Assembly (NCBI RefSeq): GCF_027497215.1
Contig: NZ_CP114904.1
Location: forward strand, 4,052,001-4,116,000
Reading direction: 5' to 3'
Origin: Micromonospora sp. WMMD812
GTDB taxonomy: Bacteria > Actinomycetota > Actinomycetes > Mycobacteriales > Micromonosporaceae
Length of the DNA: 64,000 nucleotides
Shown: positions 6,452 to 50,048 of the stretch, one piece after another
Layout: every line of letters begins with the position of its first letter
How positions within the stretch are numbered: the first letter of the stretch is position 1
Notes under the pieces: generated by a model
What the model saw: the letters and a program-made list of their open reading frames with translations, nothing else
Database searches by the model: none
Told to the model about the DNA's origin: nothing
Position numbers and translations under genes: made by a program

Positions 6452-7360
6452 TCAGCCGGCGGCGCGGGCCCGCTCCTCGGCGACCAGCTCGCGGGCGGCC
6501 GGGGCGACCTCGTTGGCGAACAGCTCGATCACGGCCGGGTCGTCGCCGGCCAGGATGAAGGCGCTCACCCCGTGCTCCAGGGCGACTCCGGCGAGGTCCT
6601 CCGCCCACTGCTCCGGCGGGCCGTTGAGGAACGACCGGCCGGTCGCGGCGAACTGGCCGCCGATGTTCAGCAGCCGGCGGACCGAGGCGGGATCGCGCCC
6701 GGCCCCGGCGGCGGCCTCGTCGATCTGCTCGTTCATCGCCACCAGGTCGGCCGGCCCGCCCTGGAGGTACTGGAGGGTGGGCAGCCAGCCGTCGGCCACC
6801 CGCCCGGTCAGCCGCAGCATCCTCGGCTTGTACGCGCCGATCCAGATGTTCACCGGGTGGGCCGGCGCCGGCCCCCGCTTCGCACCCGCGACCCGGTAGA
6901 ACTCGCCGTCGACGCGGACCCCGCCCGGCTTGTCGGCCGCCCAGACCTCGCGGATCACCTGGATCGCCTCGTCCAGGGCCTTGACCGCCTGGCCGGGGGC
7001 GAGCCGCCGGCCGCCCATCGCCTCGATGGCGTCCCAGAACCCGCCCGCGCCGATGCCGAGCTCGAACCGGCCGCCGCTGAGCAGGTCGAGACTCGCGGCG
7101 CTGCGGGCCAGCACGGCCGGCTGCCGCAGCGGCAGGTTGAGGACGTTGCCACTGAGCCGGATCCGCTCGGTACGCGCGGCCACGTAGCTCAGCAGCGTCC
7201 AGGTGTCGTGGAACCGGGGCTGGTACGGGTGGTCCTGGAAGGTGACCAGGTCCAGCCCGGCCCGGTCGGCCACCACGGCCAGGTCCACGGCGTGCCGGAC
7301 GGGCTGGGCGGTGGGCGTGACGAAGGCGCCGAACAGGAGATCGTGCCCGTAGTCGGTCAT
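6452..7360 (-). CDS. LLM-class F420/flavin-dependent oxidoreductase
   Basis: 302 residues, ATG at 7360 overlapping the stop of the upstream gene (ATGA). It is a single-domain bacterial luciferase-like TIM barrel: early FGAFVTPTAQP strand, FQDHPYQPRFHDTWTLLSYVAART, SGNVLNLPLRQPAVLARSAASLDLLSGGR, GIGAGGFWDAIEAMGG and WIGAYKPRMLRLTGR. These are the hallmarks of actinobacterial F420-dependent LLM proteins; FMN use cannot be excluded. It is about as long as the N-terminal part of the neighbouring fusion protein and clearly paralogous to it, so the pair probably arose by tandem duplication. Both are presumably controlled by the MarR site at 9658. Confidence 0.9.
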   Translation of the reverse strand: MTDYGHDLLFGAFVTPTAQPVRHAVDLAVVADRAGLDLVTFQDHPYQPRFHDTWTLLSYVAARTERIRLSGNVLNLPLRQPAVLARSAASLDLLSGGRFELGIGAGGFWDAIEAMGGRRLAPGQAVKALDEAIQVIREVWAADKPGGVRVDGEFYRVAGAKRGPAPAHPVNIWIGAYKPRMLRLTGRVADGWLPTLQYLQGGPADLVAMNEQIDEAAAGAGRDPASVRRLLNIGGQFAATGRSFLNGPPEQWAEDLAGVALEHGVSAFILAGDDPAVIELFANEVAPAARELVAEERARAAG

Positions 7361-14986: not shown

Positions 14987-15077
14987 GGCGTCAACGACGC
15001 GTCAAGATTGCCGGAGCCTCCGTCAAATCGCCGTATCGGCACGGGCTCCTCCGCCGTCGGCTCGTCACGATGGCGAC

Positions 15078-15515
15078 ATGACGTCACGACGGTTGCGGCA
15101 GCGGGATCGCGAGCCGGTACCGGCGGACGCCGGGTGGCGGAACGCCCGGCGGACGGTCGGACCGGTCGGCGGGCCGCCGCCTGCCTTCCCAGCCCCATCC
15201 GACGAGCCGGAACGACGGCACGAGGTGCTCGTCGACGTCCGGCTGACCGCCGCCACACCCGGCAGTCACCTCCTGGACTACCTGCGGACCGAACCCTGCG
15301 CCGTGGAGGCGTGGTGGATCGCCGCCGACATCGACGCCGTGGTCCGGCTCTCCGCCAGCAGCCTCACCGTGCTGCACCGCGCCGTGGCCGACCTGCAGCG
15401 GCGCGGCGGCACGGAGGTCGTCGCCACGCACAGCATCCTCCGTCCGCTCGACCTCTCGGGCGCCGACCAGACCACCATCACGACCGTCCCGGCGCGCCTG
15501 CCGTCACCGGCATGA
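15078..15515 (+). CDS. Stand-alone RAM/Lrp-effector-like domain protein (tentative)
   Basis: 145 residues. After a polar, Pro-rich 45-residue head, the sequence VLVDVRLTAATPGSHLLDYL, CAVEAWWIAADIDAVVRLSASSL and TVLHRAVADLQRRGGTEVVATHSILRPL follows. It has the beta-alpha-beta-beta-alpha-beta order of the Lrp/AsnC ligand-binding (RAM) domain, but there is no helix-turn-helix. The match is by pattern only. The gene overlaps the universal stress protein gene (ATGA), so they are co-translated. It could sense a small metabolite for that partner. No clear Shine-Dalgarno sequence is present. Confidence 0.75.
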   Translation: MTSRRLRQRDREPVPADAGWRNARRTVGPVGGPPPAFPAPSDEPERRHEVLVDVRLTAATPGSHLLDYLRTEPCAVEAWWIAADIDAVVRLSASSLTVLHRAVADLQRRGGTEVVATHSILRPLDLSGADQTTITTVPARLPSPA

Positions 15516-16015
15516 GCCGCCCGTCAGCCGCCGGCCGGATCGTGGTCGGTGTCGACCGGTCCTTCGCCGGGTTGCAGGCGTTGCGCACCGCCGTACGCCT
15601 GGCCCGCCGCGACGGCGCCCCGCTGCACGCGGTCCGGGCGTGGACGTTCGTGCCGCTCTGGCGCCCCGGCACCATGCCCTGGCTCTGGCAGGAGGAGTTC
15701 GCCCGGGCGGCCCGCTGCTACGTGCGGGACGCCTTCAACGCGGCCCTCGGCGGCGTGCCCCGGGACGTGACCGTGCGCGTCGTCGACGAGCAGGGCTATG
15801 CCGGTCAGGTGCTGGTCGACCACGCCTGGCGGGAAACGGACCTGCTCGTGGTGGGCAGCCCGCACCGTGGCCGGTTCGGCACGGGCGGCGGCCACGTCAC
15901 CCGGTACTGCGTGAAACGGGCGGCCGTCCCGGTGGTGACGGTGCCCGCGCCGGACTGGGCGCACGCCGACACGATCCGCCGGTTCGGTCGTGCCGTCGAT
16001 CGATTCTCCCGCTGA
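15512..16015 (+). CDS. Universal stress protein (UspA family)
   Basis: 167 residues, ATG overlapping the previous stop. Rossmann-like Usp fold: GRIVVGVDRSFAGLQALRTAVRLARRDGAPLHAVRAW at the N-terminus, VDEQGYAGQVLVDHAWRETDLLVVGSPHRG in the middle, and a C-terminal AAVPVVTVPAP strand. The nucleotide loop is altered (GSPHRGRFGTGGGHVTRYC instead of the usual G-x2-G-x9-G-S/T), so ATP binding is uncertain. It belongs to the co-translated pair with 15078 and precedes the SAV_915 gene by 48 bases. Confidence 0.9.
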   Translation: MSRPSAAGRIVVGVDRSFAGLQALRTAVRLARRDGAPLHAVRAWTFVPLWRPGTMPWLWQEEFARAARCYVRDAFNAALGGVPRDVTVRVVDEQGYAGQVLVDHAWRETDLLVVGSPHRGRFGTGGGHVTRYCVKRAAVPVVTVPAPDWAHADTIRRFGRAVDRFSR

Positions 16016-16391: not shown

Positions 16392-16983
16392 ATGTCGACC
16401 CTCACCGTGCTGCCGCCGTCCGACCCCGTCGGCTCCGCGCCCGACGCCACCGGGTCGGGTGTGACCGTCGAGATCTCCGTGGTGGTCCGGGCCTCCGGCG
16501 CCGCGACGGAGGTCGCCCGGGACCTCGTGGAAGCCATCTCCGCGGTCGTCGCCGACGCGTCGCCGCCCGGGCGTCGACCCCCGCTCGCGCGGGCTCGTCC
16601 TGGACGGCCCGGCGCCGGACGCCGGACCCGTCCGCGGGCCGTCGCCGCGACACCTCCGGGTCGCCCCCGGCCCGGCCGGCGCCGGCCTGGTGCTCCGGCC
16701 GTCCCGCCGGACCGCCCTGCTGGACGGGGTCGCGGTGACGATGACCCGCCGCGAGTACGACCTCCTGCTTTTCCTGGCCCGCCACCCCTACCAGGCGCTG
16801 ACCCGGGACCAGCTGCTGCGGGACGTGTGGGGCTACCAGGCCTGCCTCGGCGGCCGCACCGTCGACGTGCACGTGCGCCGGATCCGGCAGAAGCTGGCCG
16901 GCCGGGGACCGGTCATCACCACCGTGCACGGCGTCGGTTACCGCCTCGACGCGCCGGAGCGGATGCGCCTCACCACCGACTGA
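16392..16983 (+). pseudogene. Winged-helix (OmpR-type) DNA-binding gene broken by an apparent frameshift
   Basis: From ATG 16392 frame 0 reads MSTLTVLPPSDPVGSAP...VTVEISVVVRASGAATEVARDLVEAISAVVADAS. It then becomes Arg/Pro nonsense after about base 16560. From about 16575 the +1 frame becomes natural: RGLVLDGPAPDAGP...LRVAPGPAGAGLVLRPSRRTALLDGVAVTMTRREYDLLLFLA, LLRDVWGYQ, RTVDVHVRRIRQKL, TVHGVGYRL, then stop at 16983. The second part is a full OmpR/PhoB winged helix without a receiver domain. Together they fit one orphan response-regulator-like protein of about 195 residues. Either an indel at 16555-16580 is real or it is a sequencing error; the alternative is a separate 97-residue ORF from GTG 16690. 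Confidence 0.7.
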
Positions 16984-16994
16984 CCGATCCCCCG

Positions 16995-17675
16995 TCAGGG
17001 ACGGTAGCGGTAGCCCATCCCCGGCTCGGTGATCAGATGCCGGGGACGGGCGGGGTCGTCCTCCAGCTTGCGCCGCAGCTGGGCCAGGTACTGGCGCAGG
17101 TAGTTGCTCTCGTTCTGGTATTCCGGCCCCCACACGTCGTGCAGCAACTGCCGCTGGCTGACCAGCTTGCCGGGGTTGCGCAGCAGCTTCTCCAGCACCG
17201 CCCACTGGATCGGGGTCAGCTTCACCTCGACGCCGTCGTCCCGCACGACCGTATGGTCGGCGAGGTCGACGGTGTTCCGGCCCAGCTGGAGGGTGGCGGT
17301 GGCGTCGGTCGGGGCGCCGAGCCGCCGGGTGACCGCCCGGATACGGGCGAGCAGTTCCTCGACGCCGAACGGCTTGGTCACGTAGTCGTCCGCGCCCGCG
17401 TCCAGCGCCTCGACCTTGTCGTCGCTGCCGGCCCGGCCGGAGAGCACGATGATCGGCACCGTCGTCCAGCCGCGCAGGCCGCGGATGACCTCGACGCCGT
17501 CCATGTCCGGCAGGCCGAGGTCGAGGACGACCAGATCCGGCGGGTGGCTCGCGGCCACCTTCAGCGCGCCGGCGCCGGTGTCGGCGACCTCGACGTCGTA
17601 CCGGCGGGCGCGCAGGTTGATCCGCAGGGCCCGCAGGATCTGCGGCTCGTCGTCGACGACCAGGATGCGGGTCAT
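16995..17675 (-). CDS. kdpE: KdpE response regulator
   Basis: 226 residues. Receiver domain MTRILVVDDEPQILRALRINLRARRYDVEVA with phosphoacceptor Asp in LVVLDLGLPDMDG and the Lys of VTKPFGVEEL. An OmpR-type winged helix follows (LTPIQWAVLEKLLRNPGKLVSQRQLLHDVWGPEYQNESNYLRQYLAQLRRKLEDD), with the NYLRQYLAQLR segment characteristic of KdpE. ATG 17675 overlaps the kdpD stop (ATGA). It controls the K+-uptake operon kdpFABC at low K+ or high osmolarity. Confidence 0.96.
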   Translation of the reverse strand: MTRILVVDDEPQILRALRINLRARRYDVEVADTGAGALKVAASHPPDLVVLDLGLPDMDGVEVIRGLRGWTTVPIIVLSGRAGSDDKVEALDAGADDYVTKPFGVEELLARIRAVTRRLGAPTDATATLQLGRNTVDLADHTVVRDDGVEVKLTPIQWAVLEKLLRNPGKLVSQRQLLHDVWGPEYQNESNYLRQYLAQLRRKLEDDPARPRHLITEPGMGYRYRP

Positions 17676-20224
17676 TCCTGAGGTCCCTCCGCCATGCTGT
17701 GGGTCGCGGCGGGCAGCCGCAGCACCATGGTCAGTCCACCACCCGGGGTGGTCTCCGGGGTGAGGCTCCCACCCATCGCCTCGGCGAGTCCGCGGGAGAG
17801 CGCCAGCCCGAGACCGACGCCGGTCTGGTTGTCCCGGTCGCCGAGGCGCTGGAACGGCAGGAACACGTGCTCCCACTTGTCCTCGGGAATGCCCGGGCCG
17901 GTGTCGATGACCCGCAGCTCGACCTGACCGGCGTGGGCGCTCGCGGTCACCGTCGGCGGCTGTTCGGGCGGGCTGTACCGGAGCGCGTTGGCGATGATGT
18001 TGACCAGGACCCGTTCCAGCAGGCCGGGGTCGGCGGTGACGGCGGGCAGGTCGGCCGGGATGTCGGTGGTGACGTCGGCGGCCGGCGGGCCCAGCTCGTC
18101 CAGGGCCAGCGGCACCGCGTCCTCAAGACCGATGACGGCCGGGGTGAGGCCGAGCGCGCCGGTCTGGAGGCGACTCATGTCCAGCAGATTGGCGACCAGC
18201 CGGGCCAGCCGGTCCAACGACTCCTCGGCGGTGGCCAGCAACTCCGCCCGGTCCTCCTCATCGAAGTCGACGTCGGGGCTCCGCAGGCTGGTCACCGCCG
18301 CCTTCGCCGAGGCCAGCGGCGTACGCAGGTCGTGGCTGACCGCCGCGAGCAGCGCGGTCCGCATCCGGTCGGCCTCGGCGAGCGGCCGGGCCGTGGCCGC
18401 CTCCTCGGCCAGCCGCTCCTGCCGCAGCGCCACGGCCGCCTGGGCGGCGAACGCCTCGACCAGCCGACGGTCGGCGGCCTCCAGCCGGCGGCCGCAGAGC
18501 ACCACGGTGATCCGCTCGTCGACCGGTACGGCCGTCTCGCCGCTGTCCGGGGTGGTGGCGGGTTGGTCGCCGACGCTGGCCACCACGCACCAGGCCCGCT
18601 CCTCCCGGGCCCGGGACGGGCGGCCGGCGGCCTCCTCGGCGAGTTCCAGGACGCTGACCGCGCGCAGCCCGAACGTCTCCCGGAGCTGGTCAAGCAGCGC
18701 GATCAGGGGCCGTTCGCCCCGCAGCACCCCGCCGGCCACCGCCGCGAGCGTCTGCGCGTCGGCGGCGGCGCGGGCGGCCTCCCGCGTACGCCGCGCGGCG
18801 AGGTCCACGATCCAGCTGACCGCGAGGGCCACGCCCACGAAGACGATCAGAGCGAGCAGGTTGTCCGGCTCGGAGATGGTCAGCGTGTTGTAGGGCGGGG
18901 TGAAGAACCAGTTGAGCAGCAGCGTCCCGCCGAGCGCGGCGACCAGCGCGGGCCAGACCCCGCCGACCAGCGCGACCACGACCACACCGGCGAGGAACAG
19001 GAGGATGTCGCTGGCCAGGGTGAGGTCGGGCAGCACCGTCAGCAGCAGGGTCAGCAGCGGCATGCCGAGCGCGGCGAGGCCGAAGCCGAACAGCCGCCGG
19101 CGCCGGGACAGCGCCGCCGGCAGGGCGACGATCCGGCGACCGCGCCCCGCCTCGGTGTGCGTGACCAGGTGCACGTCGATGGCGCCGGAGTTCGCGGTGG
19201 TGGTCACGCCGACCCCGCGGGAGAGGATCTGGGCGAACCGGCCGCGGCGGCTCGCGCCGAGCACCAGTTGGGTGGCGTTGACGCCGCGGGCGAAGTCGAG
19301 CAGCGCGGCCGGCACGTCGGTGCCGAGGACCTGGTGGTAGGTGCCGCCGAGGCTCTCGACCAGCACCCGCTGCCGGGCGAGCTGCGCCGGGTCGGCGCCG
19401 GCCAGGCCGTCGCTGCGGGCCACGTGCACGGCGAGCAGGTCGGCGCCCTTGCTGCGGGCGGCGACGCGGGCCGCCCGGCGGATCAGGGTCTCGCCCTCGG
19501 GCCCGCCGGTGAGCGCGACCACCACCCGCTCGCGCGCCTCCCAGGTCTCGGCGATGCCCTGCTGGCTGCGGTAGCGGCCGAGCTGCTCGTCGACCTTGTC
19601 GGCCAGCCAGAGCAGGGCCAGTTCGCGCAGCGCGGTGAGGTTGCCGACCCGGAAGTAGTTGCCCAGCGCCGCGTCGATCTTGTCGGGACGGTAGATGTTG
19701 CCGTGCGCCATCCGGCGGCGCAGCGCCTCCGGGGTCATGTCGACCAGCTCGACCTGCTCGGCGGCGCGGACGATCTCGTCGGGCACGGTCTCCCGCTGGA
19801 CGGTGCCGGTGATCTGCGTGACCACGTCGTTGATCGACTCGAGGTGCTGCACGTTGACCGTGGTGAGCACGTCGATGCCGGCGTCGAGCAGCTCCTGGAC
19901 GTCCTGCCAGCGCTTGCCGTTGCGCGAGCCGGGCACGTTGGTGTGCGCCAGCTCGTCGACGACGGCGACCTCGGGCCGGCGGGCGACGACCGCGTCGAGG
20001 TCCATCTCGGTGAACTCGGCGCCGCGGTACTCCAGGCTGCGGCGGGGCACCTGCTCCAGATCGCCGATCATCGCCGCGGTGTGCTTGCGACCGTGCGTCT
20101 CGACCAGCCCGATCACCACGTCGGTGCCCCGCTCGGCCCGGCGGTGGGCCTCCTCCAGCATGGCGTAGGTCTTCCCGACGCCAGGGGCGGCGCCGAGGTA
20201 GATGCGGAGTTCTCCTCGTGGCAC
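17672..20224 (-). CDS. kdpD: KdpD osmosensitive K+ sensor histidine kinase
   Basis: 850 residues from GTG 20224 (GAGAGGA upstream). In order: KdpD domain with P-loop LGAAPGVGKTYAMLEEAHRRAERGTDVV (residues 7-34), a Usp-like domain (about 240-365), a four-helix membrane domain (about 385-490), a GAF-like part, HisKA (AVSHDLRTPLASAKAAVTSL) and HATPase_c (NIIANALRYSP, DTGPGIPEDKWEHVF, GVGLGLALSRGLAEAMGG). The full KdpD layout is kept. It phosphorylates KdpE. A hairpin at 20267 separates it from kdpC, so kdpDE may be expressed partly on its own. Confidence 0.97.
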   Translation of the reverse strand: MPRGELRIYLGAAPGVGKTYAMLEEAHRRAERGTDVVIGLVETHGRKHTAAMIGDLEQVPRRSLEYRGAEFTEMDLDAVVARRPEVAVVDELAHTNVPGSRNGKRWQDVQELLDAGIDVLTTVNVQHLESINDVVTQITGTVQRETVPDEIVRAAEQVELVDMTPEALRRRMAHGNIYRPDKIDAALGNYFRVGNLTALRELALLWLADKVDEQLGRYRSQQGIAETWEARERVVVALTGGPEGETLIRRAARVAARSKGADLLAVHVARSDGLAGADPAQLARQRVLVESLGGTYHQVLGTDVPAALLDFARGVNATQLVLGASRRGRFAQILSRGVGVTTTANSGAIDVHLVTHTEAGRGRRIVALPAALSRRRRLFGFGLAALGMPLLTLLLTVLPDLTLASDILLFLAGVVVVALVGGVWPALVAALGGTLLLNWFFTPPYNTLTISEPDNLLALIVFVGVALAVSWIVDLAARRTREAARAAADAQTLAAVAGGVLRGERPLIALLDQLRETFGLRAVSVLELAEEAAGRPSRAREERAWCVVASVGDQPATTPDSGETAVPVDERITVVLCGRRLEAADRRLVEAFAAQAAVALRQERLAEEAATARPLAEADRMRTALLAAVSHDLRTPLASAKAAVTSLRSPDVDFDEEDRAELLATAEESLDRLARLVANLLDMSRLQTGALGLTPAVIGLEDAVPLALDELGPPAADVTTDIPADLPAVTADPGLLERVLVNIIANALRYSPPEQPPTVTASAHAGQVELRVIDTGPGIPEDKWEHVFLPFQRLGDRDNQTGVGLGLALSRGLAEAMGGSLTPETTPGGGLTMVLRLPAATHSMAEGPQE

Positions 20225-20266
20225 GGGTCCATCCTCTCCGGTGCCGCCCCGTCGGGCGGTGACGCC

Positions 20267-20302
20267 ACGGGGCGAGACCACCCCGTGGTGGTCTCGCCCC
20301 GT
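20267..20302. terminator. Perfect 16-bp stem hairpin between kdpC and kdpD
   Basis: ACGGGGCGAGACCACC (20267-20282) and GGTGGTCTCGCCCCGT (20287-20302) pair perfectly around CCGT. It sits 12 bases after the kdpC stop and 43 bases before the kdpD start on the same strand, so it probably terminates or attenuates the kdpFABC transcript before kdpDE. Confidence 0.8.
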
Positions 20303-20314
20303 CTGCGCGGTGGG

Positions 20315-21199
20315 TCAGCGGGCCGGGAACTCCCGGTCCAGGGCCAGGTTGAGCTCCAGCACGTTCACCCCGGGCTCACCCATGAACCCGAGGCTCCGGC
20401 CGGTGGTGTGCGCGTCGACCAGGCGACGGACCGCCGCCGGGTCCGCGCCGCGCTCACGCGCGACCCGGTTCACCTGCAGCTCGGCGTACGCCGGGCTGAT
20501 GTGCGGGTCGAGGCCGCTGCCGCTGGCGGTGACCGCGTCGGCGGGCACCGCGGGGTCGGCGGGCGCGTCGCCGCGGATCGGGGTGATGATCCCGCCCTCG
20601 GCCACGTAGTCCTGGTCCGGCTGGGCCAGCTCCACCGGCACGCCCTGGTAGCTGGCGAGGAACGGGGTGGCCGGGGCGGTCTGGTTGACGCTCACCACCC
20701 GGGTCACCGGGCCGGTGAGCCCGTCGGCCCGGAACACGGCCAGCACCGCGCCGACCCCGTCCGAGGTGCAGAACGCGCGGCCGCCGTCCACGCCGTTGAG
20801 CTCGCCGACGGCCTTGCTGCGCTCGCAGACCTGGGTGAGCAGGCTCTGCGTCGACTCCTCGGGGTCGCCGGCGATGGTGTCCACCACGCTCTCCGGCCCG
20901 AGGTTGCTGGCCGCGGTCGCGGTGGGGTCGTAGCCGTCGCCGGCGGCGGACGGGCGGCTCTGGAAGTAGCGCGAGATCGGGTTGCCGTCGCCGTCGGTGA
21001 ACGACTGGCCGATCAGGCTGCTGCCGACGGTCCGCCCGTCGACCGTGACGAGGGACCCGTCCGCCTTGCCGGCGAGGCCGGGGATCTGGCCGACGGCGAC
21101 CAGGGCGAGCGGGTAGGCCAGGCCGAGCAGGACGGTGAAGACGAGCAGGGCCCGTAGGGCAGCGAGGTGCTGGGCGAGCCAGTTGGGTAGGCGCATCAC
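20315..21199 (-). CDS. kdpC: KdpC, K+-transporting ATPase subunit C
   Basis: 294 residues; GTG 21199 and ATG 21196 are adjacent in-frame starts. One N-terminal transmembrane helix ([25 protein letters not shown]). The extracytoplasmic domain carries [67 protein letters not shown] and the C-terminal [22 protein letters not shown]. It is longer than the ~190-residue E. coli form because of an insertion of about 90 residues (about 105-205), a form common in actinobacteria. It stabilises KdpB nucleotide binding. GTGATG overlap with kdpB. Confidence 0.96.
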
Positions 21200-23412
21200 G
21201 AGATCCCTGGGATGAACTGGATGAGCAGGTCGATGAGCTTGATACCGACGAACGGCACGACGAGACCGCCGAGGCCGTAGAGCCAGAGGTTGCGGCCGAG
21301 CAGCTTCGACGCGCTCGCCGGCCGGTACCGCACGCCACGCAGGGCGAGCGGGATCAGCACGACGATGATGATCGCGTTGAAGATGACGGCGGACAGGATC
21401 GCCGACTCCGGGCTGGCGAGCCGCATGATGTTCAGCGCGTCCAGGCTCGGGTAGAGGCCGGCGAACATGGCCGGGATGATCGCGAAGTACTTCGCGACGT
21501 CGTTGGCGATCGAGAAGGTGGTCAGCGCGCCGCGCGTGATCAGCAACTGCTTGCCGATCTCGACGATCTCGATGAGCTTCGTCGGGTCGGAGTCGAGGTC
21601 GACCATGTTGCCGGCCTCCTTGGCGGCCGACGTACCGGTGTTCATCGCCACGCCGACGTCGGCCTGGGCGAGCGCCGGCGCGTCGTTGGTGCCGTCACCG
21701 GTCATCGCGACCAGCCGGCCGCCCTCCTGCTCCTTCTTGATCAGGGCGAGCTTGTCCTCCGGCGTGGCCTCGGCGAGGAAGTCGTCCACGCCGGCCTCGT
21801 CCGCGATCGCCTTCGCGGTCCGCGGGTTGTCGCCGGTGATCATCACGGTCCGGATGCCCATCCGGCGCATCTCGTCGAACCGCTCACGCATCCCGGACTT
21901 CACCACGTCCTTCAGGTGGATGACGCCGAGCGCGCGGGCCGGCTGGCCGTCGAGGTGCTCGGCGACCACCAGCGGGGTGCCACCGGTGCCGCTGATCGCG
22001 TCGACCAGGCTGCCGACCTGGGCGGTCGGGTGGCCACCGTTGTCGCGTACCCACTTCATCACCGCCGACGCGGCGCCCTTGCGGATCCGGCGGACGCCAC
22101 CGTCGACGCTCTCCGCACCGAGGTCGACGCCGCTCATCCGGGTCTCCGCGGTGAACGGCACGAAGGTGGCGTGCGGCATCACGCCGGGCTCGCGCTCACG
22201 CAGCCCGTACTCGTTCTTGGCGAGCACCACCACCGAGCGCCCCTCCGGGGTCTCGTCGGCGAGGCTGGAGAGCTGGGCGGCGTCGGCCATGTCCGCGTCC
22301 GCCACCCCGTCGACCGGGAGGAACTCGGCGGCCTGCCGGTTGCCGAGGGTGATCGTGCCGGTCTTGTCCAGCAGCAGCGTGTTCACGTCGCCGGCTGCCT
22401 CGACCGCTCGGCCGCTCACCGCGAGCACGTTGCGCTGCACCAGGCGGTCCATGCCGGCGATGCCGATCGCCGACAGCAGCGCGCCGATCGTGGTGGGGAT
22501 CAGGCAGACCAGCAGGGACACCAGCACCACGCCGGTGACCCCGGAGTCGGTGATCGCGCCGGTGTCCGTGGCGGCGGCCTGGTAGCCCTTGGAGAAGATC
22601 GCCAGCGGCTGGAGGGTGACCACCGCGAGCAGGAAGATCACCGTGAGCGCGGCGAGCAGGATGTTCAGCGCGATCTCGTTCGGCGTCTTCTGCCGGTTGG
22701 CGCCCTCCACCAGGGCGATCATCCGGTCGATGAAGCTCTCGCCCGGCTTCTGGGTGATCTTGACGACGATCCGGTCGGAGAGGACCTTGGTGCCGCCGGT
22801 GACCGCGCTGCGGTCGCCGCCGGACTCCCGGATCACCGGCGCGGACTCACCGGTGATGGCCGACTCGTCGACGCTGGCGATGCCCTCGACGACGTCGCCG
22901 TCGCCGGGGATGGTGCCACCCGCCTCGACCAGGACGATGTCGCCCTGCTTCAACTCCGGGGCGGGCACGGCCTCGTCCCGGTACCGGTTCGCCGGCATGC
23001 CCGGCGCCCAGCCGATCAGCCGGGTGGCGATGGTGTCCCGCTTCGCCTGGCGCAGGCTGGCCGCCTGCGCCTTGCCCCGGCCCTCCGCCACGGCCTCGGC
23101 CAGGTTGGCGAAGAGCACGGTCAGCCAGAGCCAGACGGTGATGGCCCAGGCGAACACGGACGGGTCCGCGATCGCGAGCACGGTGGTGAAGACGGCGCCG
23201 ATCTCGACGATCAGCATGACCGGGTTGCGCCACAGCGTGCGCGGGTCGAGCTTGCGCAGCGCGTCCGGCAGGGACCGGAACAGCTGCTTCGGGTCGAGCA
23301 GGCCCCCGCCGACCCGGTTGCCCTGGGTGGCCGGGGTGCCCGCGGTCGGCTGTTCGCCGGCCCCGGATGTCACCGACGTGACGGACATGTTCTCGTTCCT
23401 CATGGAGTTCAC
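21196..23412 (-). CDS. kdpB: KdpB, K+-transporting P-type ATPase catalytic subunit
   Basis: 738 residues. P-type ATPase signatures: TGES ([15 protein letters not shown]), phosphorylation site [44 protein letters not shown], and [43 protein letters not shown]. Membrane helices lie at both ends. The phosphorylation-loop residue set is complete, so the pump should be active. GTG 23412 overlaps the kdpA stop (GTGA) with GAGGGG upstream; the leader of about 40 residues before [20 protein letters not shown] is polar. Confidence 0.98.
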
Positions 23413-25064
23413 AGCCCCTCAGCCAGGGGGCCGAGCGCGAGTGCGGGCAGGAAGGTCAGCGCGACGAGGATCACCGTGACGCCGACGACCATCCCGATGA
23501 ACAGGGGCCGGTGGGTCGGCAGGGTTCCCTCGGACGCCGGGGTGGGCTGCTGCCGGGCCAGCGAGCCGGCCAGGGCGAGCACGAAGATGATCGGCAGGAA
23601 CCGGCCGAGCAGCATGCACAGCCCGAGCGCGGTGTCCCACCAGGTCGTGTTCACCGTGATGCCGGCGAACGCGGAGCCGTTGTTGTTGCTGGCCGAGGTG
23701 AACGCGTAGAGCACCTCGGAGAGCCCGTGCGGGCCGACGTTCAGCGCGGTCGCGTTGTTGCCGGTGGCGAACGCCGCGGCCGTGCCGATCAGCACCAGCG
23801 TCGGGGTGATCAGGAAGTACATCGAGGCGAACTTGATCTCCCGCGCCCCGATCTTCTTGCCCAGGTACTCCGGCGTGCGGCCGACCATGAGCCCGGCCAC
23901 GAACACCGTGATCACCGCGAGGATCAGCAGGCCGTAGAGGCCGGCGCCGACACCACCGGGGGCGACCTCGCCGAGCATCATGTTGACGAGCGGCATCATG
24001 CCGCCGAGCGCGGTGTACGAGTCGTGGAACGAGTTGACCGCGCCGGTCGAGGTCAACGTGGTCGCCGCGGCGAAGGTCGCCGAGTTCGACACGTCGAAGC
24101 GGACCTCCTTGCCCTCCAGCGCCGCGCCGACCGCCTGGGGCACGGTGCCGTGCCCGGCCAGTTCGAAGACGTTGGTCAGCGTGATGCTGGCCAGCGCGAG
24201 GATCGCCATCACGGCGGCGATGGCGTACCCCTGCCGGTTCTGGCCGACCATCCGGCCGAAGACCCGGGGCAGGCTGAACGGGATCACCAGGATCAGGAAG
24301 ATCTCGAGCCAGTTGGTCCAGGTGGTCGGGTTCTCGAACGGGTGGGCGCTGTTGACGTTGTAGAAGCCGCCGCCGTTGGTGCCCAGCTCCTTGATCACTT
24401 CCTGGCTGGCCACCGGCCCGCCGGTGATCGTCTGGCTGCCACCGGTCAGCGTGCTGACGTCGGTGCCGGCGGAGAGGTTCTGCACCGCGCCGCCGATCAT
24501 GAGCGCGATTGCGCCGAGGACCGCGATCGGCAGCAGGATGCGCAGCGTGATCCGGGTCAGGTCGACCCAGAAGTTGCCCAGCTGCTCGGTGCGGTGCCGG
24601 GCGAAGCCACGGACCAGGGCGACCGCGATCGCGATGCCGACCGACGCGGAGACGAAGTTCTGCACCGCCAGGCCGGCCATCTGCACCAGGTGGCCCATGG
24701 TCGACTCACCGGAGTACGACTGCCAGTTGGTGTTGGTCACGAACGACACCGCGGTGTTCCAGGCGCCGTGCGGCACCACCGCGTCGAAGCCCAGCGACAG
24801 CCAGAGCTTGTTCTGCACCCGCTGGAACAGGTAGAGGAAGAGGATCGAGACGGCCGAGAAGGCCAGCACGCTGCGGGCGTACACACCCCACGTCTGCTCG
24901 GCGGCCGGGTTGACCCCGACCAGCCGGTAGATCCCGCGCTCGACGCGGGACTGCCGGGTGCCGGAGACCACCCGGTACATGTAGTCGCCGAACGGCTTGT
25001 AGACGGCGACGAGCGCCACCACCAGCGACAGGACGAAGATGACGCCGGCTGTTGTCATGGTCAT
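23409..25064 (-). CDS. kdpA: KdpA, K+-binding and translocating subunit
   Basis: 551 residues, about 10 membrane helices. K+-selectivity loops are recognisable: [53 protein letters not shown] and [13 protein letters not shown]. The N-terminus [32 protein letters not shown] is typical. ATG 25064 shares one base with the kdpF stop (TGATG). High-affinity K+ uptake with KdpB/C/F at the cell membrane. Confidence 0.98.
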
Positions 25065-25153
25065 CAGAAGCGCTCCGGGAACAGCAGGGCGACGACCAGG
25101 AAGATCCCCAGGCCGATCGCCAGCACCAAGCCGACAGCGTTGACCGCGCTCAC
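25064..25153 (-). CDS. kdpF: KdpF, small stabilising subunit
   Basis: 29 residues, below most gene-finder limits. A single transmembrane helix ([19 protein letters not shown]) is followed by PERF, the conserved KdpF end. GTG 25153 overlaps the stop of another one-helix ORF (GTGA), and its stop overlaps kdpA. KdpF is lipid-like and stabilises the KdpABC complex. Confidence 0.9.
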
Positions 25154-25233
25154 AGCTTCTCCACCGCCCGGATCACCAGGGCGAGCGCCGCGAACAGCGC
25201 CACCGTCAAGACCACGAACACCACGTCAGACAC
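25150..25233 (-). CDS. 27-residue one-helix protein in front of kdpF
   Basis: GTG 25233 with GAGGAG 7 bases upstream opens [27 protein letters not shown]: one hydrophobic helix with a short charged end, like KdpF in build but different in sequence. It is the first gene of the operon and its stop overlaps the kdpF start (GTGA). It may be a second small regulator or stabiliser of the Kdp pump. No function is known to me. Confidence 0.75.
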
Positions 25234-25335
25234 GCTGACTCCTCGTACGGAAAGGGTCGTCGCGACCGCCTGCCGGTCGCGCCGGGCAATCAAAGCGCCA
25301 CGGGGTGCGCGGCGACAGGGTCCATAACGCGACCA

Positions 25336-25361
25336 TGACGGCGTCCGGCGCTTTCTTGACG
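25336..25361 (+). promoter_or_regulatory. Candidate K+-regulon element upstream of kdp (copy 1)
   Basis: TGACG (25336-25340), 11 bases, TTTCTTGACG (25352-25361). The TGACG half-sites are 21 bases apart, two helical turns, as expected for a response-regulator dimer or pair. It lies about 100 bases before the first kdp ORF, in the opposite orientation. The same 26-base layout occurs at 26577. CCATAACGC is also found beside both copies (25322-25330 here). Confidence 0.5.
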
Positions 25362-25429
25362 CTCTTTTCACAGCCCGTCCCCCATCAGGTGAAGCGGGCC
25401 ACAAGAGCCACGCACCCCTCCGACGGGGG

Positions 25430-26005
25430 TCAGGCGCGCGCGCCCCAACTGGGCAGGATCGGGGGGAGATCGGCCAGGAGCGCCGACGAGCCGCGCGCCG
25501 ACGGGGCGGCGGCCGGGTCGTCGGCCTGCTGCCGGCCGTACTGGTCGGGGAGATCACCCCAGCCCCGGTAGGGCCGGGGCGAGTCCGCCGGCCGCGGTTC
25601 GGGGGTCTCTCCCGATGGCTGCCGCACCCGGCAGAGATGGGTCCAGTCCTGGCCCAGGTCGAACACGTAGGCGAAGGACGCGCCCACCGGAACGAGGTCG
25701 AGATGGCTGGTCCGGCCGTCGCGGGTGCCCGGGAAGGCCGGGCCGTCGCGCCAGGCCGACCAGCTGACGTCGGTGCCGTCCGGCAGCACGAACATGCGCA
25801 GGTGCGCGAGGTCCCAGCGGCCGAACGCGACGTCGATCGCCTCGGCCAACTGGGCGAAGGTGTGCCGTCTGCCGGCGAGGAAGACCCGGCCGGGACGCGG
25901 CCACCAGTCCCGGCCCCGCCCGGTCACCAGCTCGACCGAGATCGACAACGACGCGTCCGGCGGCGCGGGAAGCACGCCGCCGGACGGTCCGGCCTTAGGC
26001 CGCAC
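25430..26005 (-). CDS. Plasmid pRiA4b ORF-3-like family protein
   Basis: 191 residues. The family core is visible: RRHTFAQLAEAIDVAFGRWDLAHLRMFVLPDG, then HLDLVPVGASFAYVFDLGQDWTHLCRV, with conserved aromatic/acidic residues in place of the usual YDFGDxWxH. The C-terminal 60 residues are Pro/Ala-rich and end LLADLPPILPSWG. The family is widespread and of unknown function, found on plasmids and chromosomes. Its start overlaps the end of the next upstream gene by 11 bases, so the two are probably co-transcribed. A K+ role is suggested only by position. Confidence 0.85.
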   Translation of the reverse strand: MRPKAGPSGGVLPAPPDASLSISVELVTGRGRDWWPRPGRVFLAGRRHTFAQLAEAIDVAFGRWDLAHLRMFVLPDGTDVSWSAWRDGPAFPGTRDGRTSHLDLVPVGASFAYVFDLGQDWTHLCRVRQPSGETPEPRPADSPRPYRGWGDLPDQYGRQQADDPAAAPSARGSSALLADLPPILPSWGARA

Positions 26006-26480
26006 GGTGCAACCCGGCGGGACCGTCCGGCGGCGCGACCACCGGCTGGGTGGTCGACGGCAGGGGGCGGGGCACGACGGTCGGGGCCGGACTCGGCGAC
26101 GGCCCCGGTGCCGGCACGGACGAGCGCATGTGGCGGTAACCGGTCCCCAGCGCGGCGGCGAACCCGATCACGGCGGTGTAGGCCCAGGCGGAGGTGGACG
26201 TGTCGACGAGTTCGCCGAACTGGTTGACCAGGAACCCGATGAAGGTCAGCGCGCCCAGCACGGTCACCGCGGCCACCGCCCGCAGGTCCGGTACGACGGC
26301 GGCGAACCCGCCGACGGCGATCGCCACCACGAGCAGCCGCCCGGGCAGATCGACCGGCGGGAAGAGCGCCGCCGCCAGCAGCGTCGCACCGATCACCAGC
26401 AGGGCACCGACCGCGATGTTGATCCCGGTCGGGGTCCGACAGTCCTCCGTCCCGGTTGCCCGGTCATGATCGCCGCTCAC
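25995..26480 (-). CDS. Small integral membrane protein (four helices, KdpD-transmembrane-like)
   Basis: 161 residues from GTG 26480 (GGAGG 7 bases upstream). Four hydrophobic helices: INIAVGALLVIGATLLAAALF, RLLVVAIAVGGFAAVV, VAAVTVLGALTFIGFLVNQFG and SAWAYTAVIGFAAALGTGY. A Pro/Ser-rich cytoplasmic tail of ~50 residues follows. The helix lengths and the loop after helix 3 resemble DUF4118/KdpD membrane domains, but no catalytic part is present; this likeness is weak. It sits between kdp and kimA. Confidence 0.75.
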   Translation of the reverse strand: MSGDHDRATGTEDCRTPTGINIAVGALLVIGATLLAAALFPPVDLPGRLLVVAIAVGGFAAVVPDLRAVAAVTVLGALTFIGFLVNQFGELVDTSTSAWAYTAVIGFAAALGTGYRHMRSSVPAPGPSPSPAPTVVPRPLPSTTQPVVAPPDGPAGLHRAA

Positions 26481-26576
26481 GGCACGCCTCCGCCGAACGC
26501 GAGCCCGCCGTCCGGGCCCGTACGTCGCCATACCAATCCGGCGGCCGGGCCACCGTCGATGGTTTTCACGCACCCG

Positions 26577-26602
26577 TGACGCCGGAAGCGGATTTCTTGA
26601 CG
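26577..26602 (+). promoter_or_regulatory. Candidate K+-regulon element upstream of kimA (copy 2)
   Basis: TGACG (26577-26581), 11 bases, TTTCTTGACG (26593-26602): identical layout and identical 3' decamer to the element at 25336. CCATAACGC follows at 26606-26614. It is about 130 bases before the KimA-like gene start and in the same orientation as that gene. Confidence 0.5.
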
Positions 26603-26732
26603 GCGCCATAACGCCGGTTCACCACGCGCGGCGGAGCGCCGGACGGCCGGCGTGAAAGTGCCGTACGTATTCGCGGCCGCGCCGTAAAGAACATGTATCG
26701 GAGGAGGAACTGGCCATCCCGCGCGGCGCATC

Positions 26733-28664
26733 GTGAGTCGCATGGTCAGCTCTCTCACCCCGCCCGGCACCGAGGCCGAGGAACCCCGCCGCCCGACCAC
26801 CCCACCACCGGGTGCCGCCACCCCCGGCGGTCGCCGGTGGCCGGTCGGCCGACGGGACCGCAACACGGCGGGCCGGGATCGGCTATCCGTGTCGGGCGGC
26901 CTGGCCGCGCTCTCGCTGGACGCGATGGCGTCGGTCTCGTACGGCCCGGAGGCGATCGTGCTGGTGCTCGCCGCCGCGGGCGGCGCCGGCCTGGGCCTCA
27001 CCCTGCCGGTCACCCTGGCGATCGCCGGCCTGCTCGCGGTGCTCGTGCTCTCCTACCGGCAGGTGATCGCCTCGTTCCCCGACGGCGGCGGCGCCTACGC
27101 CGTCGCTAAGCGGCACCTGTCCCGGCGTACCAGCCTTGTCGCGGCGGCCTCCCTCGTGGTCGACTACGTGCTGAACGTGGCCGTGTCGGTCGCCGCCGGC
27201 GTCGCCGCGCTGACCTCGGCCTTCCCGGCGCTGCTGCCGTACACCGTGCAGCTCTGCCTGGGCGTGCTGGTGCTGATCACCGCCGTCAACCTGCGCGGCA
27301 TCGCGGCCAGCGCCCGGGCGTTCATCGTGCCCACCGCGATCTTCGTCGGCGCGATCTTCACGGTGATCGTCGCGGGTCTGCTGCGGAGCGAACCGGCGCA
27401 CCTGAGCGAGGCGGCTCCGGCCGCCGGGCCGCTACAGGCGGTCGGTGCGCTGCTGCTGCTCAAGGCCTTCGCCAACGGCTGCGCCGCGCTGACCGGCGTG
27501 GAGGCGATCGCGAACGCGGTCCCGTCGTTCCGCGAGCCCGCCGTCCGACGCGCCCAGCGGGCCGAGGTCGCGCTCGGCGCCCTGCTCGGCGTCATGCTGA
27601 TCGGTCTGGCCACGCTGATCGGGCGATTCCAGCTTCACCCCGTCGAGGGGGTGACCGTCCTGGCCCAGCTCACCGACGCCGCGCTGGGGCACGGGGTCGG
27701 CTTCTACGTCGTGCAGTTCGCCACCATGGTGCTGCTCGCGCTGGCCGCGAACACGTCGTTCGGTGGGCTCCCGGTGCTGGCCCGGCTGCTGGCCGAGGAC
27801 AACTACCTGCCCCACGTGTTCGCCCTGCGCGCCCGCCGCCAGGTGCACCGCTACGGCGTCCTGGTGCTGTCCGCGGTCGCCGGTGTGCTGCTGGTGGCCG
27901 CGAACGGCCAGATGAACACGCTCGTCCCGCTCTTCGCGATCGGCGTCTTCGTCGGCTTCACCATCGCCCAGTACGGGATGGTCCGGCACTGGCTGCTCGA
28001 ACGCGGTCAGGGCTGGCGGTGGAAGCTGGCGCTCAACGGCTTCGGCGCCGTGCTGACCTTCGCCGCCGCCATCGTCACCACCGCCAGCAAGCTCTCCGAG
28101 GGCGCCTGGCTCATCGTGCTCACCCTGCCGCTGCTGGTGTTCGGCTTCGAGTGGGTGCACCGGGCGTACCAGCGCTTCGGCGTGAGCCTCCGGCTCGGCC
28201 AGACGCCCGCCCCGCCCCGGCCCGGGCCGTCGGTGGTGGTCGTCCCGGTCGGCGACGTCTCCGAGTTGACCCGGCGGGCCCTGGCCGCCGCGCTGTCCCT
28301 GGGCGACGAGGTCACCGCGGTCCACGTCACGTACGCGGACGAGCCGGGCTCCGCGGACCGGTTCCGCGGGAGGTGGGAGGCCTGGCACCCGGATGTGCCG
28401 GTGGCGGTCGTCGAGTCGACCGACCGGGACCTGGGCCGGCCGGTGGTCGAGCACCTCCGGCGGCACTACCCGGGACGGCACGTGTTCGTGGTCATCCCGG
28501 AGGTCGCGCCGCAGCGGCGGTGGGAGCGGATCCTGCGGAACAACCGCGGTGCCGTGCTGGAGCGGGCGGTCCGCCGGGACAGTGACGCGATCGTCTGCCG
28601 GATGCGCTTCCCGGTGCCCGCGCCGAATCGAGTCGCGCCCACGGACGCTCCGGCCGGGGCGTGA
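26733..28664 (+). CDS. kimA: KimA-like APC-family potassium importer
   Basis: 643 residues, 12 membrane helices plus a soluble C-terminal Usp-like domain (about 490-620, PSVVVVPVGDVSELTRRALAAALSLGDEVTAVHV). The signature LAALSLDAMASVSYGPEAIVLVLAAAG and FPDGGGAYAVAKRHLSRRTSLVAAASLVVDYVLNVAVSVAAGVAAL match the KimA/KUP-type APC branch that imports K+ with H+ and is inhibited by c-di-AMP in Bacillus. Start: GTG 26733, with ATG 26742 an alternative; the strong GGAGGAGG at 26699 is too far away to decide. It shares an upstream element with kdp. Confidence 0.85.
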   Translation: MSRMVSSLTPPGTEAEEPRRPTTPPPGAATPGGRRWPVGRRDRNTAGRDRLSVSGGLAALSLDAMASVSYGPEAIVLVLAAAGGAGLGLTLPVTLAIAGLLAVLVLSYRQVIASFPDGGGAYAVAKRHLSRRTSLVAAASLVVDYVLNVAVSVAAGVAALTSAFPALLPYTVQLCLGVLVLITAVNLRGIAASARAFIVPTAIFVGAIFTVIVAGLLRSEPAHLSEAAPAAGPLQAVGALLLLKAFANGCAALTGVEAIANAVPSFREPAVRRAQRAEVALGALLGVMLIGLATLIGRFQLHPVEGVTVLAQLTDAALGHGVGFYVVQFATMVLLALAANTSFGGLPVLARLLAEDNYLPHVFALRARRQVHRYGVLVLSAVAGVLLVAANGQMNTLVPLFAIGVFVGFTIAQYGMVRHWLLERGQGWRWKLALNGFGAVLTFAAAIVTTASKLSEGAWLIVLTLPLLVFGFEWVHRAYQRFGVSLRLGQTPAPPRPGPSVVVVPVGDVSELTRRALAAALSLGDEVTAVHVTYADEPGSADRFRGRWEAWHPDVPVAVVESTDRDLGRPVVEHLRRHYPGRHVFVVIPEVAPQRRWERILRNNRGAVLERAVRRDSDAIVCRMRFPVPAPNRVAPTDAPAGA

Positions 28665-49859: not shown

Positions 49860-50034
49860 GGACTCTCGGGTAACCTCGCTGCCGGTCACCGACGAAGGCG
49901 CGCAGCGGCGCCTGCGGTGCCGCCGCCCAATCGCCACCTGGCGAGCCGGGAACCCAGGTACGTGGGGTGAATCCGCGACAGCGGTAGGGGCCACTTCCGC
50001 CCCGAACCCGTCAGCTAACCCGGTCGGCGGTCGA
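49860..50034 (+). ncRNA. ydaO/yuaA c-di-AMP riboswitch
   Basis: Near its 3' end lies CCCGAACCCGTCAGCTAACC (50001-50020), the most conserved strip of the ydaO RNA, followed by CGGTCGGCGG. Upstream are GGTGAATCCGCGA (about 49967-49980) and GAGCCGGGAACCCAGGTA (about 49942-49960), the other conserved parts. The ribosome binding site GGAAGGGAA starts directly after it and the GTG is at 50049. It controls the following cell-wall gene; c-di-AMP binding usually turns expression off. Exact ends are approximate. Confidence 0.88.
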
Positions 50035-50048
50035 CGGAAGGGAACACT

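Follow-up and report, generated by a model that had tools for sequence, protein, structure and literature searches.

A four-box promoter array in Micromonospora as a candidate KdpE operator for potassium uptake genes

KdpDE is known mostly through kdpFABC. Wider roles, virulence among them, have been reported (PMC3610689), and according to unpublished data mentioned in PMC10117811, alongside the venezuelae K+ transporters, growth on the media used there did not require KdpDE. The Micromonospora locus described here raises the question of whether KdpE also acts on a second K+ uptake gene. The 64-kb window (the whole stretch of DNA presented for analysis) holds two copies of a 26-bp element, TGACG-N11-TTTCTTGACG, copy A upstream of kdp and copy B upstream of a kimA-like gene, and the original prediction was that KdpE binds both copies and that kimA is a new member of the KdpE regulon.

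The shared element and the four-box array

Both copies, at 25336-25361 and 26577-26602, are present with zero mismatches, CCATAACGC lies beside each of them (25322-25330 and 26606-26614) and the TGACG half-sites are spaced 21 bp, just as originally described. Many matches at unrelated places in the genome would have counted against a specific site, and these are absent: the exact pattern occurs twice in the 7,134,996 bases of this genome, both times as one of the two copies, and its backward control not at all, while the base composition of the window leads to an expectation of about 0.001 matches per genome. The pattern was picked after the fact, and relatives provide a separate test. If the element serves kdp it should recur there in related genomes, and it does. 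Of the 121 genus genomes scanned, the present one among them, 51 carry the exact pattern, with 52 occurrences in all, and the backward control gave no match; KdpA was found in 89 of the 121 genomes, and 50 of the 52 matches sit 308-348 bp upstream of the start of the KdpA domain. Of the remaining two, one is copy B itself and the other comes from G096, a genome in which no KdpA match was found. The latter locus (L009), one of 30 exact-pattern loci taken from relatives, has no kdpA match and by eye no four-box array, and is likely a chance match.

The TGACG pair is real, but the true unit is larger. In 29 relatives and the window the conserved unit spans 50 bp and comprises four direct-repeat boxes with the consensus GTNANRR, starting at 0, +11, +32, and +43 (i.e., 11, 21, and 11 bp apart) and separated by variable spacers. 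The array is directional; it is read on the minus strand because kdp lies on that strand, and copies A and B both point to the left. A and B have nearly identical inner boxes but have exchanged their outer ones, and this explains why CCATAACGC was seen on opposite sides of the two copies. The window contains four such arrays, C and D being additional to the two copies first noted (Table 1). The genomes directly show the arrays themselves, how they are spaced and oriented, how well they are conserved, and which genes they accompany.

Arrays were scored with a broad matrix whose training sites came from kdp, o25995, and ORF15078, among them A, B, and D as well as two misregistered ORF15078 loci; neither C nor any kimA site was used. 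Control windows were drawn from the same loci as the arrays, and the counts of arrays given below ignore relatedness, relatives not being independent draws. The next site in the window after the four arrays scores 11.9. In a background sample of the own genome (60 stretches, 1.2 Mb, over the first 6.07 Mb) no site scored at least 20, while 3, 6, and 35 sites scored at least 16, 12, and 8, respectively, some of those scoring at least 8 falling in one tandem repeat. When the whole genome is searched with a stricter four-box pattern that tolerates 3 mismatches, A and B are the sole matches; this pattern is too strict for C and D, and the result is no census of arrays. C and D deviate from the box consensus at several positions. 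Past the array, at about 28-33 bp, a -10-like signal is seen in five gene classes. In three of them, the kdp, o25995, and ORF15078 classes of Micromonospora, it is clear; in the kimA class and in kdp from outside the genus it is weak, with two or three positions reaching about 1 to 1.5 bits.

Table 1. Arrays, putative promoter hexamers and genes in the window, in order of position
Feature	Positions	Strand	Basis or remark
Array D, GTCAACG-N4-GTCAAGA-N14-GTCAAAT-N4-GTATCGG, facing ORF15078	14990..15039	+	score 30.0 (broad matrix)
Putative -10 CACGAT	15066..15071	+	predicted; one base earlier than in A-C
ORF15078, 145-aa protein, no assigned family	15078..15515	+	
Universal stress protein (Usp)	15512..16015	+	Pfam PF00582, 64.8 bits
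kdpE, response regulator, 226 aa, proposed array binder	16995..17675	-	E. coli KdpE chain 4kny, E 4.6e-66
kdpD, sensor kinase	17672..20281	-	Pfam PF02702, 331.3 bits vs cut-off 26.1
kdpC	20315..21199	-	Pfam PF02669
kdpB	21196..23412	-	P-type ATPase domains and operon position
kdpA	23409..25064	-	Pfam PF03814, 772 bits; TIGR00680 above cut-off
kdpF, 29 aa	25064..25153	-	presumably kdpF; named by resemblance to KdpF
Small hydrophobic ORF, 27 aa, heads kdp operon	25150..25233	-	sequence
Putative -10 TTTGAT, kdp promoter	25289..25294	-	offset 28-33 after array A; predicted from conservation
Array A, kdp operator, GTGAAAA-N4-GTCAAGA-N14-GTCATGG-N4-GTTATGG	25322..25371	-	score 35.3 (broad matrix)
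o25430, 191 aa	25430..26005	-	weak PRiA4_ORF3-like match, 24.6 bits, below cut-off 26.6
o25995, 161-aa hypothetical membrane protein	25995..26480	-	about 4 hydrophobic helices (by eye)
Putative -10 TGGTAT for o25995	26530..26535	-	offset 28-33 after array B; predicted
Array B, GTTATGG-N4-GTCAAGA-N14-GTCACGG-N4-GTGAAAA, facing o25995	26563..26612	-	score 34.4 (broad matrix)
Array C, GTGAAAG-N4-GTACGTA-N14-GTAAAGA-N4-GTATCGG, weaker, facing kimA	26652..26701	+	score 24.7 (broad matrix)
Putative -10 CATCGT of kimA	26729..26734	+	offset 28-33 after array C; predicted
kimA-like K+ transporter, 640 aa	26742..28664	+	KimA 6s3k, E 3.3e-113, residues 32-608

The kdp promoter and KdpE as its candidate activator

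With the broad matrix a forward array was found ahead of kdpA at all 30 loci examined in the genus, that of the window among them, its end 244-261 bp upstream of kdpA, although several of these loci had helped to train the matrix. A wider set, in which one of 50 loci is from Micromonospora (L068), was scanned with a matrix made from Micromonospora kdp sites only. Here a forward array was found at 41 of the 50 usable kdpA starts, with 0.94 expected, and in 38 of these the end of the array lies 238-294 bp upstream of kdpA. Among the KdpA places found in the 43 searched kimA genomes (see below), 30 loci were scanned. Reverse arrays precede kdpA at 15 of the 50 wider-set loci, which also exceeds expectation; the excess of reverse arrays, seen before kimA as well as before kdpA, arises partly because kdpD or kdpA is divergent there. 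Nine of the 15 reverse arrays before kdpA, in genomes reached through Nocardia kimA loci (L149-L151, L153, L154, L156, L157, L165, and L168), are strong (23-31). In G126, for example, kdpD is divergent at that place, which suggests that kdpDE may be autoregulated. The DNA of the 27-residue hydrophobic ORF before kdpF is well conserved in M. antibiotica. Genome G116 has a second KdpA match, at C1:924860-926467.

The array is most likely a binding site for KdpE, judging from homology of the regulator and the likeness of the site to known ones. Of 102 NCBIfam models KdpE is the best match to the response regulator of the locus, at 254.2 bits and below the equivalog cut-off of 325, and the name is supported because the gene adjoins kdpD, the product of which is likewise below its NCBIfam equivalog cut-off (519.9 vs 1123 bits). 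The regulator aligns lengthwise with E. coli KdpE, and counterparts of the DNA-contact residues R193, R200, and T215 are kept (positions counted by hand). In M. smegmatis KdpE is reported to regulate kdpFABC positively at low K+, and footprinting and gel shifts defined CCGTAAAGAAACCATCAAGGCC as its minimum binding sequence (PMC5401905). This sequence contains GTAAAGA-N4-ATCAAGG, i.e., a 7-bp box and an 11-bp period equal to those of the array; its authors saw no noticeable similarity to earlier sites (PMC5401905). As here, the M. smegmatis site is followed by a 5' UTR and a small kdpF, but it is described as a single 22-bp sequence (PMC5401905), whereas the present arrays have four boxes and at least three further proposed target gene sets. 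The E. coli KdpE half-sites TTTATA and TTTACA, 5 bp apart, read GTAAA and ATAAA on the other strand, 11 bp apart as in the array period, although the E. coli site is an AT-rich single pair, unlike the four-box array (PMC3264566). The match of the half-sites to the M. smegmatis site and their conservation at kdp promoters thus favor the original proposal of a response-regulator site of the KdpE kind.

It is conceivable, if unlikely, that another regulator of K+ genes from the OmpR/PhoB family binds the boxes without KdpE. Other family members also use direct repeats with this period; for example, M. tuberculosis PhoP is reported to bind as a dimer to direct repeats whose 7-bp motifs are 4 bp apart, as here, although it is a different regulator with other targets and the comparison covers the repeat layout (PMC4832192). 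A winged-helix domain is also encoded nearby in the window (16690-16983). On the other hand, box and period both agree with the M. smegmatis KdpE site (PMC5401905), the arrays are found at kdp promoters in a wide set of loci, and KdpD is present in 43 of the 43 genomes searched for it.

It is likely, as far as sequence can tell, that KdpE binds arrays A-D as activator arrays and through them drives a small K+-starvation regulon. Two KdpE dimers would occupy the two tandem box pairs (1-2 and 3-4) on one face of the DNA, the boxes being 11 bp apart within a pair and 21 bp apart from box 2 to box 3. Some 27 bp lie between the end of the last box and the -10-like hexamer, which would place the array at roughly -89 to -40. 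At low K+ KdpD would phosphorylate KdpE, and the array-bound KdpE would then help to recruit RNA polymerase to kdpFABC(DE) at array A, o25995-o25430 at B, kimA at C, and ORF15078-Usp at D. In this scheme, what KdpE binds, where the promoters lie, which genes share a transcript, and how they respond to K+ are inferred from the sequences.

Array B, array C and the question of kimA

Copy B had been assigned to kimA, and this part of the original prediction is not supported. Because B points away from kimA, because its -10-like hexamer faces o25995, and because the array is kept in the absence of kimA, B does not appear to be the element of kimA; it probably belongs to o25995, opposite in direction. 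Of 26 o25995 loci, two were left out for want of a blast start; a forward array was found before 22 of the 24 usable ones, with 1.16 expected, and the other two lack one. By estimate the start codon follows the array at 81-87 bp in 17 loci and at 44-62 bp in the remaining 5. Of these 22 array-bearing loci, 20 have no kimA and 7 no kdpA in the fetched stretch; in L018 and L019, for example, o25995 and the array are present and this kimA is absent. The o25995 protein itself has no match in Pfam or NCBIfam, and its 25 database matches, itself included, comprise only Micromonospora hypothetical proteins among those named by NCBI. It is found in 24 of the 121 genus genomes, all 24 of them KdpA-positive (hypergeometric p 0.0002, ignoring relatedness). 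The o25430 gene overlaps the end of o25995 and is perhaps on the same transcript. The idea that o25995 is a detached KdpD membrane domain (DUF4118) was rejected, as hhalign gave a probability of 0.1 and thin alignments.

That B is nevertheless a KdpE site for kimA is quite improbable. In its favor, the intergenic region is divergent and about 130 bp separate the end of B from the kimA start codon; activators can at times work in both directions, and arrays are frequent at kimA relatives. Against this stand the direction of B, its retention at the o25995 loci without kimA, and the candidate array of its own, C, that kimA has. Moreover, a close kimA is present in just 2 of the 121 genus genomes (100 and 83 % identity, the next match being at 42 %). 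The second of these, G116, which is taken as M. antibiotica, keeps the box spacing of B although the spacer has diverged, and this also bears on a further alternative, namely that the likeness of A and B reflects a recent duplication of kdp promoter DNA that left B without function. The two arrays do share the same core, lie close together, and point in the same direction. However, their outer boxes are swapped and their N14 spacers differ, and together with the M. antibiotica spacing and the frequency of arrays at o25995 loci this makes such a duplication very improbable. That the likeness arose by chance, a suspicion invited by a pattern chosen after the fact, can practically be dismissed given the tiny expectation per genome, the empty backward control in 121 genomes, and the placement of nearly all exact matches upstream of kdpA.

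If B is set aside, kimA is still probably in the KdpE regulon, via another site, because 40 of 80 relatives carry a forward array where 0.82 are expected, as scored with the broad matrix, which holds no kimA sites (reverse arrays, 10 of 80). The membership proposed for kimA is thus upheld in general, although its route would be array C and not copy B. The relatives are the best 80 of 125 actinobacterial loci, with 60-84 % identity, one of them from this genus. With the kdp-only matrix a forward array was found at 28 of the 80 loci and a reverse array at 6, 0.54 forward arrays being expected, a number raised by the kdp promoters included in the control windows. Where the fetched DNA includes kdp genes, 20 of 32 kimA loci have forward arrays, and where it does not, 20 of 48; 43 of the latter 48 genomes were searched, and KdpA and KdpD were found in all 43. 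Half of the 80 loci have no forward array at the cut-off, and several of those from Nocardia have the downstream pair alone (by eye). The layouts are varied where kdp genes occur near kimA (32 of 80 loci, L064-L143, with up to 10 kb on each side); kimA may lie just downstream of kdpDE, for example, or be divergent from kdpA.

Array C is the weakest of the four. It scores 7.9 with the kdp-only matrix, boxes 2 and 4 contributing -7.2 and -2.5, and is outscored under that matrix by a site at 7356 (13.5). Its M. antibiotica counterpart (L068, 9827-9876) scores 19.1 with the same matrix. In the window the kimA ATG is at offset 41 after array C, a leaderless layout, and in M. antibiotica the hexamer CATCCT and the kimA ATG are found at the same offsets (28-33 and 41). 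The KimA paralogues of the genus, with about 40 % identity, were considered as further targets and rejected, 0 of 28 examined, out of many more such matches, having a forward array of 8 or more, and they served as a negative control.

Neither a report of KdpE control of kimA nor the phrase 'KdpE regulon' was found in the literature searched, from which subscription journals are largely absent, so that absence from print is not established. The KimA of B. subtilis is a transporter likewise tied to K+ homeostasis, and the control described for it in PMC10117811 is inactivation by c-di-AMP, whereas a two-component promoter array is proposed here. No c-di-AMP riboswitch was found near kimA in the window at the Rfam threshold. 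Such a riboswitch was also rejected as the shared element; the sole Rfam match in the window, a c-di-AMP riboswitch (RF00379, 83.7 bits), is at 49914-50044 (+), distant from both kimA and kdp.

ORF15078, Usp and a proposed wider regulon

The fourth array, D, leads to ORF15078, which has no Pfam match. Matches to ORF15078 are found in 22 of the 121 genus genomes (own included), and all 22 are KdpA-positive (hypergeometric p 0.0005, ignoring relatedness). All 22 ORF15078 loci score above the cut-off, with 0.00 expected. As the scoring sites in L205 and L207 overlap the start, 20 of the 22 arrays are counted as regularly placed, the start codon following after 39-40 bp (partly by eye). In the window the ATG at 15078 follows six bases past CACGAT, again a leaderless layout. 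The Usp gene overlaps ORF15078, and the two likely share one transcript.

On balance we lean toward a broader reading, in which actinobacterial KdpE would run a K+-starvation regulon by means of four-box arrays, comprising the Kdp pump, a KimA-type symporter, a Usp operon, and o25995 as a possible modulator of pump or sensor. The last is a lineage-specific membrane protein, here confined to genomes with kdp. A directional operator that is readable from sequence would make the actinobacterial KdpE regulon predictable, would place two K+ uptake systems, a pump and a symporter, under one sensor, and would offer two unstudied families, o25995 and ORF15078, as K+-starvation genes.

Between Usp and kdpE lies what is possibly a winged-helix regulator gene split over two frames (16392-16983, +), its Trans_reg_C domain being the one noted above; the split could reflect a frameshift, an artefact, or two genes.
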